From assembly GCF_004005945.1 (NCBI RefSeq), contig NZ_SACS01000003.1, positions 204,790-268,789 of the forward strand: a stretch of DNA of 64,000 nucleotides, given 5' to 3'. Below are positions 6,838 to 41,623 of this stretch, piece after piece (positions within the stretch are counted from its first letter, which is position 1; every line of letters starts with the position of its first letter). The notes under the pieces are model-generated. The model was given only the letters and a program-made list of their open reading frames with translations, did no database searches and was not told the origin of the DNA. The position numbers were made by a program, and so were the translations under genes. Origin of the DNA: Rheinheimera riviphila (lineage in GTDB: Bacteria; Pseudomonadota; Gammaproteobacteria; Enterobacterales; Alteromonadaceae).

Positions 6838-7036
6838 TGTTTGATCACTCTTGTTTGGCAACAGACATCAGTGCACTGCGACTTCCGGTCGAATCTAAAT
6901 TAAGGTGGGACGCATTCAGGCGGAACACGCGCATTATTACACAGCATTTCAATTGATTAAATTAGCTGGCACTGATTTGCCAGAATTCGACTTTGCCTTA
7001 TACTGCGGCCAATCATTTCTGCTGGCGGACGTTATT

Positions 7037-8461
7037 TTGGCGGCAACTTTTTACTTTCACGATTATGAAACCTGGGGCGCGGATCCGAAAAAAGATCGGC
7101 CAGCACAATTTGCCGGATTACGTACCGATCTCGCGTTAAACCCGCTTGGCGAAGCGCAGATGTGGTACTGCCAACTGGCTGCGGATTATTTACCGCACCC
7201 GGTCGCAGCGTTAATCACCGGTTTAACGCCCCAGTTATGTAATCAAAAAGGCTTGCCGGAAGTGCAGTTTATGCAGCGGATTTTGCAGGAATTCAGTACC
7301 GCTGAAACCTGTGTGGTCGGTTATAACAATCTGCGATTTGATGACGAAATCACCCGTTATAGTTTGTGGCGCAATTTCCTTGACCCTTATGGTCGTGAAT
7401 GGCAACAAGGCAACAGTCGCTGGGACCTTATCGATGTGGTGCGTGCTTGTTATGCGCTGCGTCCGGAAGGCATTCAATGGCCACAACACGACAATGGCAA
7501 CCCGAGTTTTCGGCTCGAAGATTTAACCAAAGCCAACGGTCTCGAGCACCAGCATGCCCACGATGCACGCTCAGATGTGTACGCCACTATCGGTATCGCC
7601 AAATTAGTGCAACAAGCGCAACCTAAGTTGTTTCAGTACTTATTCGAAAATCGTAAAAAACAACAAGTGCAGGCGCTGATTGACGTGGCCGGCATGACGC
7701 CGCTGGTGCATGTGTCGTCAAAATTCCCGGCAAGCCAGGGTTGTTGTAGCTGGATAGTGCCTTTGGCGTTTCATCCGACCAATAAAAACGCTGTGATCTG
7801 TTTTAATTTGCAGTCGGATCCAAGACTGCTCGCCGATCTAACTATCGAGCAGCTCAATGAACGGCTTTATCGCAAAACTGCCGATCTAGCCGACGATGAA
7901 CCCAGACCTGGCTTAAAACTAGTGCATCTGAATAAATGTCCGGTGCTGGCCAATGCCAAAACGCTGAGCGAAGCGCGCGCGGTGGAACTTGGAATTGACC
8001 GCAAGGCGTGCCTGGCCAATCTGGAATGGCTGAAACAAAACCGGCAGTTGCAGCAAAAAGTGGTCGAGTTGTATCAGCATGCGGCTGAATTTAAAGCCGA
8101 AACCAACCCGGATTATATGCTGTATCAAGGCTTTACTTCGGATAGCGATAAACAACAGATGCAGCGGCTGCACCAATTAGCGCCAGAAGCGCTGCAAGGC
8201 AACGCCATTCAGTTTCAGGATGACCGGTTAAATCAATTGTTGTTCCGGTTTCGCGCCAGAAACTATCCACACACGCTGACCTTTGACGAAATGGAAAAAT
8301 GGCGACGTTATTGTCATGATAAATTGACACTGGGGTTGGATCAGCCGGCATTAACTTTTGAAGATTTTACCCTGGCGCTGGAAAGTGCCGCCGAAAGTCA
8401 GCAAAACGACCCGAAAAAAATGCAAATTTTGCAAGCGTTATATCGATTTGTAAGCGCTTAA
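7037..8461 (+). CDS. sbcB: Exodeoxyribonuclease I
   Basis: A 3'-5' single-strand DNA exonuclease used in mismatch repair and recombination. The N-terminus carries the DEDD motif Exo I in FYFHDYETWG, then Exo II in VVGYNNLRFDDEITRY and Exo III in HDARSDVYATIGIAK. The SH3-like and helical C-terminal region follows. The reading frame is open back to 6905 (GTG), but homologues begin just before FYxHDYET. A TTG at 7037, preceded by GGCGGA, gives 474 residues, against 475 in E. coli, so I take that start. It is divergent from the endonuclease gene. Confidence 0.92.
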   Translation: MAATFYFHDYETWGADPKKDRPAQFAGLRTDLALNPLGEAQMWYCQLAADYLPHPVAALITGLTPQLCNQKGLPEVQFMQRILQEFSTAETCVVGYNNLRFDDEITRYSLWRNFLDPYGREWQQGNSRWDLIDVVRACYALRPEGIQWPQHDNGNPSFRLEDLTKANGLEHQHAHDARSDVYATIGIAKLVQQAQPKLFQYLFENRKKQQVQALIDVAGMTPLVHVSSKFPASQGCCSWIVPLAFHPTNKNAVICFNLQSDPRLLADLTIEQLNERLYRKTADLADDEPRPGLKLVHLNKCPVLANAKTLSEARAVELGIDRKACLANLEWLKQNRQLQQKVVELYQHAAEFKAETNPDYMLYQGFTSDSDKQQMQRLHQLAPEALQGNAIQFQDDRLNQLLFRFRARNYPHTLTFDEMEKWRRYCHDKLTLGLDQPALTFEDFTLALESAAESQQNDPKKMQILQALYRFVSA

Positions 8462-8686: not shown

Positions 8687-9484
8687 ATGAACCAACATCA
8701 CGATACACAAACCACAGATGTAACTGCGACCCCTGCAGTTCTGCCACAGGAACAGGCTCCTGGGTTGTCACGTCGTAAGTTTTTAACCCGCGCTGGTGTG
8801 GGTTCTTTACCCGTTATCATGTCGATTAAAAGTGGTAGTGCCTGGGGCTGTGTCGACTTAAAATGTACACCTGGTGAAACCAGCCTGAGTAACTCGGGTT
8901 CTGCGGTTGCATCAGCAACATCGACCAGCGATGGCAAACCAGCAGCTTATAAAAAGCCAAAATGGTCGACTATTAAAATCATCAAAGATGTATTCAGTGT
9001 TGATTTTAATAGCTATCTATTAGAAACCTACCAATACACGCTCTACACCAAATCTGGCAGCAAATACACTGAGATCTCCAAAAGCAACTGTAAAAGCTGG
9101 TGGACGACTGTTAAAGCTTCGACTTGCTATACCAAAAAGAGCAGCTCAAATTATCCAAGATATACCGGCACTAAACGTGAACCTGGTATGTTTGGCACCA
9201 AAGTGTTGATCAACAGCACTAAATTCTCTGAAATTTTTGGTACCGGCACTACGGCAAATTTCCTTACCTGCCTGAGCATGAATGACTCGCTGGAACAGTA
9301 TTTGGTTGCAGCCTTTATCGGGGCGGTTTGGGAACGTCACACTGAATACCGTAACCAATACGGTAGCCGTGAATTGTGTTACCCGGCGCCACAAGATTTG
9401 ATCGATGCTTATCAGGATGCATTAAATCGTGATAACGGCTTGGAAGACTTACGGACTTTATTAAAGTTCTATACCATCGGTTGA
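8687..9484 (+). CDS. Exported protein of unknown function with twin-arginine-like signal (cassette gene 1)
   Basis: I do not recognise a catalytic family. The 265-residue product has a polar 27-residue N-tail, then SRRKFLTRAG (RR at 29-30) and a short hydrophobic stretch ending in SAWG near 54. This looks like a Tat signal, though its hydrophobic core is weak. The mature part starts with a CVDLKC pair and a Ser/Thr/Gly-rich stretch. It then has aromatic- and Cys-containing blocks (for example NCKSWWTTVKASTCY) and a C-terminal segment with ELCYPAPQDLIDAYQDAL. ATG at 8687 has a GAGGT site. It leads the PqqD-like, HPr-kinase-like and nucleotidyltransferase genes, so it may be their exported substrate (inference). 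Confidence 0.75.
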   Translation: MNQHHDTQTTDVTATPAVLPQEQAPGLSRRKFLTRAGVGSLPVIMSIKSGSAWGCVDLKCTPGETSLSNSGSAVASATSTSDGKPAAYKKPKWSTIKIIKDVFSVDFNSYLLETYQYTLYTKSGSKYTEISKSNCKSWWTTVKASTCYTKKSSSNYPRYTGTKREPGMFGTKVLINSTKFSEIFGTGTTANFLTCLSMNDSLEQYLVAAFIGAVWERHTEYRNQYGSRELCYPAPQDLIDAYQDALNRDNGLEDLRTLLKFYTIG

Positions 9485-9491
9485 TGATAGC

Positions 9492-9677
9492 TTGCCCAAA
9501 CCTCAAAATTCTACCCCGGACTATGCCAACAGCATACTCCGGGGTTCTTCTTCTGCGACATTAACACTGGCCACCGACGACAACTCAGGTGTGGTCTGTT
9601 TTGATGTATTTACGCAAGATACATGGATCGAACTGCCCGAAACTGCTAACGTAACCACTTCTTCAGTGGAAAATTGA
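9492..9677 (+). CDS. Short PqqD-like protein of an HPr-rel-A cassette (cassette gene 2)
   Basis: A 61-residue product starting at a TTG seven bases after the stop of gene 1. No other start exists in this frame upstream, and no strong Shine-Dalgarno is seen, so it is probably translated by coupling. The segment GVVCFDVFTQDTWIEL matches the beta-hairpin of PqqD-related proteins of HPr-rel-A clusters (usually 'VVFDxxSGDTHLL'). The helical winged-helix half expected after it is missing: the frame stops after SSVEN. It could be a minimal adaptor or a decayed gene. The identification rests on a short motif and on position next to the HPr-kinase-like gene. Confidence 0.6.
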   Translation: MPKPQNSTPDYANSILRGSSSATLTLATDDNSGVVCFDVFTQDTWIELPETANVTTSSVEN

Positions 9678-9683
9678 TCATCA

Positions 9684-10538
9684 ATGACAACAAGTTTTGT
9701 GCTGGCCTCTGCCCCTTTTAATTTTCAGGTCAATACCAGTGGCTCCGTGTTGTATGATCAATTGCAACAACTCTATCCAGCGTCAGTACTGCAAAACTCT
9801 CCCTCCACTGACATTATTGATTTTCAAATTGATTTCAAAAAAAACTGGTGGTCTTTCAGCCAAAGCTACGCCTTTAAATTGGGTCAGCATCATTTCCGGA
9901 TGACCGCCAAACCCCAGTTACTCAGTGTGTTTGAATGGGGTTTAAACTGGGCAGTTTCTTCTTATCAAAACCGCTACCTGTGCATTCACGCTGCGGTGCT
10001 GGAAAAAAACGGCATCAGTCTGATTTTGCCAGCGCCACCAGGCTCTGGCAAAAGTACGTTATGCGCATTATTGATGTTGTCTGGCTGGCGTTTGTTGTCT
10101 GATGAACATTGCTTGATTGACCCACAAACCGGGATGATTTTGCCTTTTGTGCGGCCAATCAGTTTAAAAAACCGCTCAATTGCCGTGCTCAATCAACGTT
10201 ATGCCAAAAACATCGTTCAATGTGTGGTGCCGGATACCTTTAAAGGCACTATCGGTTATTTGCCGCCAACTGCCGAAAGCTGGCAGTTGATGCACCAGCC
10301 GGTACAACCGGCCTATGTGATTTTCCCCAAATATAACGCTCATGTTGCGGCAACTGAATTCTCCGGTATTGAACAAAGTCAGTTGTTTATGCAACTGGCG
10401 GTGAATTGTTTTAATTACACCGTGTTGGCCGAAGTGGGTTTTGAAACCCTGGGACGTTTAGTAAAACAAGTCGTTGGCATTCGGTTGGAATATGCCAATA
10501 CCGATGAGGCTTTGCAGCTGATTGCGGAGCTTGACTGA
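9684..10538 (+). CDS. HPr kinase-related P-loop protein (HprK-rel-A) (cassette gene 3)
   Basis: A 284-residue protein with the kinase core of HPr serine kinase/phosphorylase but without its N-terminal regulatory domain. The segment CIHAAVLEKNG precedes the P-loop at 117-125 (APPGSGKST). A Walker-B-like LLSDEHCLID stretch follows at about 137-146, and VRPISLKN at about 155. These are the hallmarks of the HprK-rel-A family. No canonical HPr substrate gene lies nearby, and the phosphoryl acceptor is unknown. The start lies six bases after the PqqD-like stop. Its stop codon TGA overlaps the next ATG (ATGA at 10538), implying translational coupling. Confidence 0.85.
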   Translation: MTTSFVLASAPFNFQVNTSGSVLYDQLQQLYPASVLQNSPSTDIIDFQIDFKKNWWSFSQSYAFKLGQHHFRMTAKPQLLSVFEWGLNWAVSSYQNRYLCIHAAVLEKNGISLILPAPPGSGKSTLCALLMLSGWRLLSDEHCLIDPQTGMILPFVRPISLKNRSIAVLNQRYAKNIVQCVVPDTFKGTIGYLPPTAESWQLMHQPVQPAYVIFPKYNAHVAATEFSGIEQSQLFMQLAVNCFNYTVLAEVGFETLGRLVKQVVGIRLEYANTDEALQLIAELD

Positions 10539-11650
10539 TGACGCCGGTCTGCCTGCAACTCCTGCAAAACCCGGCGAAATTTATTGAACACGCCAATGCG
10601 CAAATCTGGACTGATTTGATTCATCAGGCGCGGGAACAAGCGCTGCTCGGCAGTTGTTATTTCCTGCTACAGGATGCCGGTTTATATGATGCGATCCCCG
10701 AAAAAGTCAAAACCCATCTGTATTCCGGTTATATCTACGCCCAGAAGCAAAAAATCAGCTTAATCAAAGAAATGCTAAAGCTGGAACCGTTTTTCAGTGA
10801 CGCGCCTTATCCCTGTGTCTTGCTCAAAGGCTGCGCTTACCGGCTGACTGAATTGGCGATGGCTCGGGGCCGGGTGTTTTCTGATATTGATATTCTGGTG
10901 CCACAACAGCAGTTCCCCGATGCACTGCAACGATTAAACGAAGCCGGTTTTATCGAATTTGGCATGTCCGATTATGACCGGCGTTATTATTTACGCTGGT
11001 CGCATCAGCATCCGCCATTGATCCATTATCTGCGTGGTGTATCCATCGATTTGCACCATCATATTTATCCGGTATCGTCCCAGGAAAATATCTTAATCGA
11101 GCCGATGCTGCGCCAATCGATCCCGCTGGCCGGTTCGTCCTTTGCCGTGCCGACCAAAGCACTGATGTTTGTGCATGCTTGTGTCCATTTGTTTTATCAG
11201 GACGAAACTCACAAGCTGGTCAAAGACTTATGGGATTTATACCAGCTATATCTGGATGCTATTGCTGAAGGTGAAGCGAACATTGTGCAGGCCGCCACCG
11301 ATTTGAACGCGCAAGCTGCGGTTTATTATGCCTTTGATGTGCTTGAGTGGTTGTTTCAAATTAATGTCTCGGCGCTGGCCCTCACCCAGTTAAAACCTTT
11401 TGCCAACCACTCGCAGCGCCGGTCCATGCGCTGGTTATTAACACAATTGTTCAACCCACAAAGTAGCTGGCATCGGCTGGCGCATATTTGGTGGGCCATC
11501 CGCGGCCATTTGCTGAAAATGGGGCCAATGACACTGCTTTATCACAGTGTTGCCAAGTCGGTGGAACAATACCGTGAACGGCGTATTCATACCGCGCAGC
11601 AGCAACAACAAGATGCGCTGACCAAACCTAAAGATGCCGGTTTTCAGTAA
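10538..11650 (+). CDS. Nucleotidyltransferase-fold protein of an HPr-rel-A cassette (cassette gene 4)
   Basis: A 370-residue soluble protein of the NTP_transf_5 type of nucleotidyltransferase-like proteins. It has VLLKGCAY at 94-101, then GRVFSDIDILV, where Asp116-x-Asp118 would bind metal. A conserved DLHHHI block and the FVHACVHLFYQDE and VKDLWDLYQL segments follow and complete the family pattern. These proteins recur beside HprK-rel-A kinases and in exopolysaccharide or peptide-modification clusters; their substrate is not known. It overlaps the kinase gene by one base and is the last gene before the TPP riboswitch, so the cassette ends here. Confidence 0.8.
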   Translation: MTPVCLQLLQNPAKFIEHANAQIWTDLIHQAREQALLGSCYFLLQDAGLYDAIPEKVKTHLYSGYIYAQKQKISLIKEMLKLEPFFSDAPYPCVLLKGCAYRLTELAMARGRVFSDIDILVPQQQFPDALQRLNEAGFIEFGMSDYDRRYYLRWSHQHPPLIHYLRGVSIDLHHHIYPVSSQENILIEPMLRQSIPLAGSSFAVPTKALMFVHACVHLFYQDETHKLVKDLWDLYQLYLDAIAEGEANIVQAATDLNAQAAVYYAFDVLEWLFQINVSALALTQLKPFANHSQRRSMRWLLTQLFNPQSSWHRLAHIWWAIRGHLLKMGPMTLLYHSVAKSVEQYRERRIHTAQQQQQDALTKPKDAGFQ

Positions 11651-11703
11651 ACTTAGCTGCATTTTTACTTGCGTTTAAACTTAATCTTTCCCTATACTCG
11701 GCG

Positions 11704-11792
11704 CTCTTGTCGGAGTGCCCATTTGGGCTGAGACCGCGTTACGCGGGATCCGTTGAACCTGATCAGGTTAGAACCTGCGAAGGGAACAAGGG
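11704..11792 (+). ncRNA. TPP riboswitch (THI element)
   Basis: The conserved THI-box core is present: GGGCTGAGA, then an ACGCGGGATCC-type P3, then GAACCTGATCAGGTTAGAAC and CGAAGGGAACAAG. The closing P1 helix pairs CTTGT (11706-11710) with ACAAG (11786-11790). It lies about 200 bases before thiC and should lower thi expression when thiamin diphosphate is bound. A small GGGT/ACCC hairpin followed by TTTTT (11790-11812) and a GGCCAT/ATGGCC stem (11822-11838) are candidate expression-platform elements. The rest of the 11651-11993 gap shows nothing else I can name. Confidence 0.97.
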
Positions 11793-11969
11793 TAATGTAC
11801 CCGGAGTTTTTCCCATTTTTAGGCCATAATTTATGGCCATTGTTGAGAAAGGCCCACTAGTCAAACCAGATGTTAGTTGCACCTAGCGCGACTAAGTTAT
11901 CTGAACGGCTATCCTAACGGCACACCGCCGTCATTACTCCAACATACTCCAGGCAAGCAACTTTGTTAA

Positions 11970-15422
<3,453 letters not shown>

Positions 15423-41167: not shown

Positions 41168-41476
41168 TAGATTGTATTCCAGAGACGACGCGTAAACATT
41201 GATTGGCAAAAGTTGCTGTAACAAATTACTTCCAAATTCCGCAAATATTTCGCATACAAAAATATTTTAAGATTGTTTATGAATAAAAATTAATTGTTAA
41301 CAACGCTTTTGCTATAACGAATTTTTGAACCCAATCGGCTGCAAGGCCGCAGCTGTCAAAGCACAGTGGATTTTTCTCTGGATAAGCTGGGGATAACTAT
41401 TGGATAACTTGGGTACAAGCTGGGGCTAATTATACAAATATTTAACTTTATCAACGAACTGTCGACGTCAGACGAT

Positions 41477-41506
41477 TTGAGCAATTTTTACGCACTTGGC
41501 TACACT
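41477..41506 (+). promoter_or_regulatory. Candidate sigma70 promoter ahead of three hairpins
   Basis: TTGAGC (41477-41482), an 18-base spacer, and TACACT (41501-41506). Each hexamer matches the consensus at four of six positions. Transcription would begin near 41513, just before the first hairpin of the putative small RNA. Confidence 0.45.
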
Positions 41507-41512
41507 GAATTC

Positions 41513-41623
41513 ATGTCGCATTGCTGCTGTCGAGCAATGCCCCACCGGTAGCGCACGGCTCAGTTTCTGAGCCATTCCCCTAAGCCCAGAACAATGCGGA
41601 TTGGTTCTGGGCTACTTTTATCT
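41513..41623 (+). ncRNA. Candidate small RNA in the 41126-41731 gap
   Basis: Three perfect stems follow in series: GCATTGCT/AGCAATGC (41518-41540), GGCTCAG/CTGAGCC with a TTT loop (41557-41573), and AGCCCAGAAC/GTTCTGGGCT with an 11-nt loop (41583-41613). The last is followed by ACTTTTATCT, as in an intrinsic terminator. A promoter-like pair lies directly upstream. There is no open reading frame of note in the gap. The family, if any, is not recognised. Apart from this and the GntR palindromes, the 606-bp gap shows AT-rich DNA with no further feature I can support. Confidence 0.5.

Follow-up and report, generated by a model that had tools for sequence, protein, structure and literature searches.

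A twin-arginine-type exported protein as a regular component of the HPr-rel-A cassette and its possible substrate

We analysed a 64,000-nucleotide stretch of the Rheinheimera riviphila genome (contig NZ_SACS01000003.1, positions 204,790 to 268,789; hereafter the window) and focused on a cassette at 8687-11650. It consisted of four open reading frames (ORFs) on one strand, head to tail. They coded for a protein with a twin-arginine (RR) signal of the twin-arginine translocation (Tat) type, a short PqqD-like protein, a kinase and a transferase (Table 1). The start of the transferase ORF overlapped the kinase stop by one base. An earlier note on this DNA had described such an arrangement, and all four ORFs were present on the same strand. 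The four-gene cassette is genuine.

Table 1. Coordinates of the cassette genes, the proposed acceptor serines and the bordering genes in the window
Feature	Position	Strand	Basis or remark
RR protein, 265 amino acids, proposed substrate	8687..9484	+	Tat-type signal about 28-54, predicted flexible Ser tail about 55-80, predicted folded domain about 90-263
Codons of S68, S72 and S76 (S-x3-S-x3-S), putative acceptor serines	8888..8914	+	Invariant, 49/49 window-clade sequences
Short PqqD-like ORF, 61 amino acids, TTG start, without the C-terminal half of its relatives	9492..9677	+	Alignment, position
HprK-related kinase A, 284 amino acids	9684..10538	+	TIGR04352; invariant H102, K123, D140, E141
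NTP_transf_5 nucleotidyltransferase-like protein, 370 amino acids	10538..11650	+	PF14907; conserved K97-G98, R112, D116, D118, D171
Exodeoxyribonuclease I (sbcB), bounding the cassette slot on its left, outside the system	6905..8461	+	
ThiC, right neighbour, outside the system	11994..13850	+	Thiamine pyrophosphate (TPP) riboswitch in front

The kinase ORF matched HprK_rel_A (TIGR04352) with 269.3 bits against a cut-off of 200. It was HPr-kinase-like, as the note had claimed, and did not hit an unrelated P-loop family. HPr kinases have a P-loop, an upstream His and a downstream acidic pair. H102, K123, D140 and E141 were conserved in 99 of 99 alignment rows, which comprised 98 loci (L086 left out) and the window, itself also locus L091. 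The transferase ORF matched NTP_transf_5 (PF14907) with 133 bits (gathering cut-off 31.2). D118 and D171 were present in all 79 rows (78 loci and the window) and D116 in 78, which bore out the Asp-x-Asp nucleotidyltransferase suggested before. K97-G98 and R112 were also conserved, and we take these residues together to be the pattern of nucleotidyltransferases. The transferase was found by phmmer at 78 of the 99 loci; a pattern search (68 of 99) missed many. All alignments were the output of MAFFT, uncorrected by hand.

In the case of the 61-amino-acid ORF, no meaningful NCBIfam or Pfam match was obtained, and TIGR04353 ('HPr-rel-A system PqqD family peptide chaperone') did not detect it. Of the 63 ORFs scanned from this slot (those of relatives plus the window's own), 34 matched this model at E 0.01 or better. 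The window ORF aligned to the N-terminal strands of these proteins, and the C-terminal part was missing. It was kept in two near relatives at 85 and 62% identity, with ratios of nonsynonymous to synonymous substitution rates (dN/dS) of 0.57 and 0.29. Position and alignment support reading it as a shortened PqqD relative; its PqqD-like nature was therefore upheld by slot and N-terminal alignment, but not by a family match.

The RR protein carried the motif SRRKFL at residues 28-33, followed by a hydrophobic stretch. It had no Pfam family and no NCBIfam family above cut-off, in agreement with its earlier description as a protein without a recognised family. Only TAT models of NCBIfam were matched below threshold (TIGR01409, 12.9 bits, cut-off 16.7; TIGR02811, 13 bits, cut-off 48.45). 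When 79 RR proteins were scanned at E 0.01, at most four matched the generic TAT model, and any other family was matched by one member each. Judged by the motif and the signal anatomy, export by Tat, as claimed in the earlier note, is very probable for this protein. The C-terminus (LLKFYTIG) showed no PEP motif, transmembrane helix or basic end, and no PEP-CTERM model was among the NCBIfam and Pfam matches listed.

In the window clade (n = 49), the signal was the best-conserved part, with a mean pairwise identity of 0.78. It was followed by the serine tail (0.68) and the folded part (0.32 and 0.48, the latter for its C-terminal part). In the predicted structures of both RR protein models, signal and tail had low confidence and the domain had mostly high confidence, so the protein is read as a folded domain bearing a flexible tail of serines. 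No convincing PDB match was found for the window clade or for the main class of partners elsewhere (class I). Class I had at least 916 relatives among 7991 candidates scored, and none of the 120 listed had a Pfam domain.

The tail contained a regular serine array. S68, S72 and S76 were serine throughout the window clade. In class I (A6, n = 38), C59, S63 and S67 were invariant, S71 was found in 33 of 38, and the array mostly preceded a second Cys and an SPGYW motif. A further 120 class I relatives had S63 and S67 in every case and S71 in 117; they had been retrieved with a motif-bearing profile and are not an unrelated test of the motif. The window clade and class I were aligned by hhalign over the n-region and signal only (97.6% probability, 55 columns). 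The spacing S-x3-S-x3-S just behind the signal was common to both. It was present in 87 of 125 partners compared with 10.4% of shuffled tails, which preserve composition only and not relatedness, and it was the commonest among 49 spacings tried. Motif counts were made on 160 proteins (125 and 35), which are not independent, as one species may occur in both the named and the unnamed set (for example L081 and L181). For L067 and L228 this set used earlier picks. L145, L155, L158, L175, L202, L219 and L233 were dropped (L155, L158, L202 and L233 although a partner exists there), and so were the sister-type loci L087, L089 and L090.

The linkage of the genes was followed across genomes. The kinase was above the TIGR04352 cut-off in 47 of 147 relatives' genomes. 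The RR partner profile placed an RR gene upstream of it on the same strand in 45 of these 47 carriers, and the other two had the locus at a contig edge (G018) or a broken-looking locus (G056). At the latter, L086, the kinase was split across two matches and no RR gene was found, probably a decaying cassette. A PF14907 gene lay downstream of the kinase in all 47. Conversely, 45 of the 46 genomes with an RR match had an adjacent kinase, the sole exception being a partial match inside a 760-codon frame; the co-occurrence raised in the earlier note was thus observed. In a sample of the phylum, 61 of 398 genomes had the kinase above cut-off. Fifty-two of these kinases were counted (seven were already in the relatives' set; G309 and G325 were left out), and an upstream RR gene was recognised for 45 of them, either by rule or by eye. 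Locus counts refer to kinases above the cut-off, so that the weaker-kinase loci L087-L090 and L173-L180 are not in them. Over both samples, a strict Tat-ORF rule was satisfied upstream of 82 of 97 kinases, namely those of the 99 loci having at least 1.3 kb upstream, versus 13 of 1174 control stretches. At named loci, a Tat-type protein was found in 75 of 80 (Rheinheimera, Arsukibacterium, Massilia, Methylomonas, Rubrivivax, Thiobacillus and others); among the other five, L188, L220, L235 and L248 began less than 1.5 kb from a contig end, and L219 had none. The RR protein belongs to the cassette.

A sister cassette was also seen (L087, L089, L090; P0050-P0067). Its kinase was longer, at 375-394 amino acids, and by eye began with a PqqD-like region; a PF14907 gene was present, and the RR peptide was tiny (57-81 amino acids). 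Only about 14 residues of this peptide lay beyond the likely signal, which is like a ribosomally synthesized and post-translationally modified peptide (RiPP), and SCRGNG.K.C was retained in 17 of 18 relatives. At the three loci, the peptide gene ended 6-56 bases ahead of the kinase.

In several species of the window's genus, the slot behind sbcB was likewise occupied by the cassette. Between the window and L050, identity was 78% for sbcB and 23, 25, 35 and 29% for RR protein, PqqD, kinase and transferase. Of 12 congeners that lack the cassette, 10 had a lipoprotein-like gene 115-249 bases after sbcB, and the same gene followed the cassette in three carriers. In the remaining two congeners, it was not found after sbcB in one and was ambiguous in the other. 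By these comparisons, gain, loss and replacement affect the cassette genes as one unit. The conserved lipoprotein-like gene, with C[VFI]APA close to the start, formed the right edge of the slot, empty or filled (L056, L077, L078, L267-L276), and its L078 copy had no NCBIfam match.

The window copy is derived, as its short PqqD is under the weakest constraint and the SPGYW motif is missing. Since the cassette is intact and RR protein, kinase and transferase are under purifying selection, it probably works, perhaps needing PqqD less. Beyond it, the TPP riboswitch ahead of thiC was at 11701-11802 (Rfam, 81.5 bits). Elsewhere in the window, Rfam matches on opposite strands at 41475-41623 (SdsR/RyeB, 58.2 bits; SraC/RyeA, 46 bits) indicated an overlapping antisense small RNA pair.

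The kinase could be read as a metabolic regulator that acts on an HPr or NPr paralogue and is unrelated to the RR protein. Its domain is related to that of HPr kinase, and the kinase profile matched the HprK chains 1jb1/2qmh, at E 0.012 only. However, the four genes include no HPr-like ORF, as the note had also said of the kinase's target. The RR gene adjoined the kinase in 45 of 47 relatives, and the kinase was lost and gained along with it. A role on an HPr-type target is therefore highly improbable. The cassette kinase also differs from HPr kinase/phosphorylase in its acidic pair, Asp-Glu.

The cassette resembled the HPr-rel-A system (TIGR04352 and TIGR04353) in having a kinase above the curated cut-off, a PqqD-like gene in the same slot and a PF14907 gene downstream. 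It differed in the RR protein, which lacks a Pfam or NCBIfam model though it stands beside most such kinases, and in the window PqqD, which is truncated and undetected. In open-licence literature, no published paper was found under the names of the system, and no published function of it was met with.

A second comparison set was the phosphorylated and phosphoglycosylated lasso peptide clusters (paeninodin PadeK, ThcoK, SyanK; pseudomycoidin PsmK, PsmN; the B1 proteins with a RiPP recognition element, RRE). We take the B1 protein to be PqqD-like. PsmN and the PF14907 enzyme were likened by description only. The lasso literature describes HPr-kinase homologues that phosphorylate the C-terminal Ser of lasso precursors, a nucleotidyltransferase homologue required to add one or two hexoses onto the phosphate, and a B1 protein that binds the leader (PMC8498205, PMC9266682). 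The likeness lies in the set of proteins acting on a serine of a ribosomal precursor: an HPr-kinase homologue, a homologue of nucleotidyltransferases and a small protein that binds the leader. In contrast, the proposed substrate of the cassette is a Tat-type exported folded protein of about 200 residues, and its proposed serines are N-terminal. No B2 protease and no C macrolactam synthetase/cyclase was among the four genes, a check that did not extend to the rest of the genome. Against the PDB, the PqqD profile matched the lasso RREs TfuB1 (E 0.007) and TbiB1 (E 0.25). These matches and that of the kinase profile to HprK agree with a lasso-like scheme, although other families score alike.

Because three lasso-like proteins adjoin an exported protein whose conserved signal resembles a leader and whose tail serines are invariant, we propose a sequence of docking, tail phosphorylation, decoration and export. 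The PqqD-like protein would dock the RR precursor, with the conserved signal and tail region as leader. The HprK-type kinase would then phosphorylate one or more tail serines (S68, S72 or S76 in the window). The PF14907 enzyme might next attach either a nucleotidyl or a sugar group, most likely to the phosphate, as proposed for PsmN on a lasso peptide. The modified RR protein would be exported afterwards and, in relatives, would probably act on the cell surface or within the exopolysaccharide matrix. Substrate, site, decoration and order of steps are what we infer. The RR protein is probably the substrate of the cassette enzymes. The serine tail may well be the modification site, but we do not lean to either side, and decoration of the phosphate by the second enzyme is suggested tentatively. 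On the sequence evidence, the view that the four genes form one post-translational modification and export unit acting on the RR protein is our preferred reading, at about even odds. The putative phosphorylation or nucleotidylation of the exported partner ahead of export, raised in the earlier note, gained support from the invariant serines, the exchange as a unit and the lasso precedent.

Several observations weigh against this proposal. The full triple-serine spacing was missing in 38 of the 125 class-I-type partners, though most retained S-x3-S (by eye). A further 35 partners from other lineages had no serine array and carried a C-terminal C-[WFY]-x-S-[FLI] motif instead. No acceptor site is therefore universal. 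The conserved serines could be structural or export-related, and conservation of the signal could come from a dedicated Tat chaperone and not from PqqD docking. The truncated PqqD evolved fastest, at the dN/dS given above versus 0.03-0.05 for the other cassette genes where computable, which is odd for an essential docking protein. PDB matches of the PqqD and kinase profiles were weak, with entries of other families scoring equally or better. Seven of the 52 phylum-sample kinases had no upstream RR gene (L137, L138, L139, L145, L153, L160, L172), L138 with only 1.4 kb of sequence upstream. According to a review, the lasso kinases need His-Lys-Asp-Asp (PMC9266682), whereas the cassette kinase has Glu for Asp at the last position. 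The same review allows that PsmN may be a genuine nucleotidyltransferase, with the sugar added by the host (PMC9266682). As a separate observation, L139 and L153 had a sugar-pathway-like gene (by eye) in the upstream place of the RR gene.

The C-terminal motif raised the question of a second site. It occurred as C-W-x-S in 26 proteins and as C-[FY]-A-S-L in nine (L162-L170, L122-L159), all in genomes outside the window's class, and in only one of the 125 other partners. It was thus common to two otherwise different partner groups, and the lasso kinases likewise use a C-terminal Ser (PMC8498205, PMC9266682). The true acceptor might then lie elsewhere, for example at this motif, with the N-terminal serines serving folding or export. 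However, the window clade has no such C-terminal serine motif and its N-terminal serines are invariant, and we regard this explanation as quite unlikely. In both arrangements the same kinases meet a serine close to a Cys, which is no more than suggestive.

An equally unlikely explanation makes the serine tail the product, freed after export as a small modified peptide with the folded domain merely as its carrier. Conservation of signal and tail with a diversified domain would fit this, as would the sister cassette, whose tiny Tat-type peptide extends about 14 residues past its likely signal. Against it, no protease gene is among the four, and the folded domain is conserved too, as the identity of its C-terminal part in the window clade indicates.

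The genomic context pointed to the envelope among relatives. Exosortase A (XrtA, TIGR03109) was above cut-off in 45 of 47 cassette carriers versus 9 of 100 other relatives (Fisher p 3e-26, relatedness uncorrected); the two carriers without it, G009 and G020, were congeners. Three loci were tested for neighbours: in L043 and L049 the cassette lay next to PrsK (TIGR02916) of the XrtA/PEP-CTERM system, and in L057 next to an NDP-sugar (nucleoside diphosphate sugar) dehydrogenase. The cassette thus shares its distribution with exosortase A/PEP-CTERM among relatives, but the signal of the RR protein is of the Tat type, and a PEP-CTERM tail was not seen. The contig that carried XrtA in the window's genome (C103) was not that of the window (C48). 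The comparison with exopolysaccharide neighbourhoods suggested in the earlier note therefore held in relatives and not beside the window copy. In the phylum sample, exosortase A was over cut-off in 9 of 9 genomes with C-[FY]-A-S-L partners and in 0 of 26 with C-W-x-S partners.

This context also bears on the possibility that the target of kinase and transferase is a small molecule or a lipid-linked sugar of exopolysaccharide synthesis, the RR protein being a co-regulated exported partner. The co-occurrence with exosortase A in relatives, the neighbours in L043, L049 and L057 and the seven kinases without an RR neighbour are in its favour. However, it accounts neither for the PqqD-like protein nor for an exported protein whose serines are invariant. 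The RR gene also changes together with the enzymes as a unit, exosortase A is over cut-off in none of the 26 carriers with C-W-x-S partners, and the window copy sits between sbcB and thiC. We consider action on such a molecule unlikely. An envelope or matrix role is likely for the window's clade, though unproven and not general, because the co-occurrence is strong in relatives and fails in those 26 genomes.

The HPr-rel-A system itself was already named. What is new here is its regular fourth component, the serine array of this component, the exchange as a unit and the link to exosortase. A regular fourth gene with invariant serines turns an unknown kinase with an unknown target into a two-protein experiment. 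It is conceivable, though we hold it with some reserve, that HPr-rel-A is a general pathway in which RiPP-type enzymes (a leader-binding PqqD, an HprK-type serine kinase and a nucleotidyl or sugar transferase) attach phosphate-linked groups, inside the cell, to a surface protein that Tat then exports in folded form, and which feeds the exosortase/exopolysaccharide envelope in many proteobacteria. The RR family, with its own acceptor array C-x3-S-x3-S-x3-S and no detectable relative of known structure, would then be the overlooked substrate. If true, this would connect RiPP-type tailoring with the export of proteins and with the biology of exosortase and exopolysaccharide. It would also define exported phospho- or phosphoglycoproteins as a widespread family.

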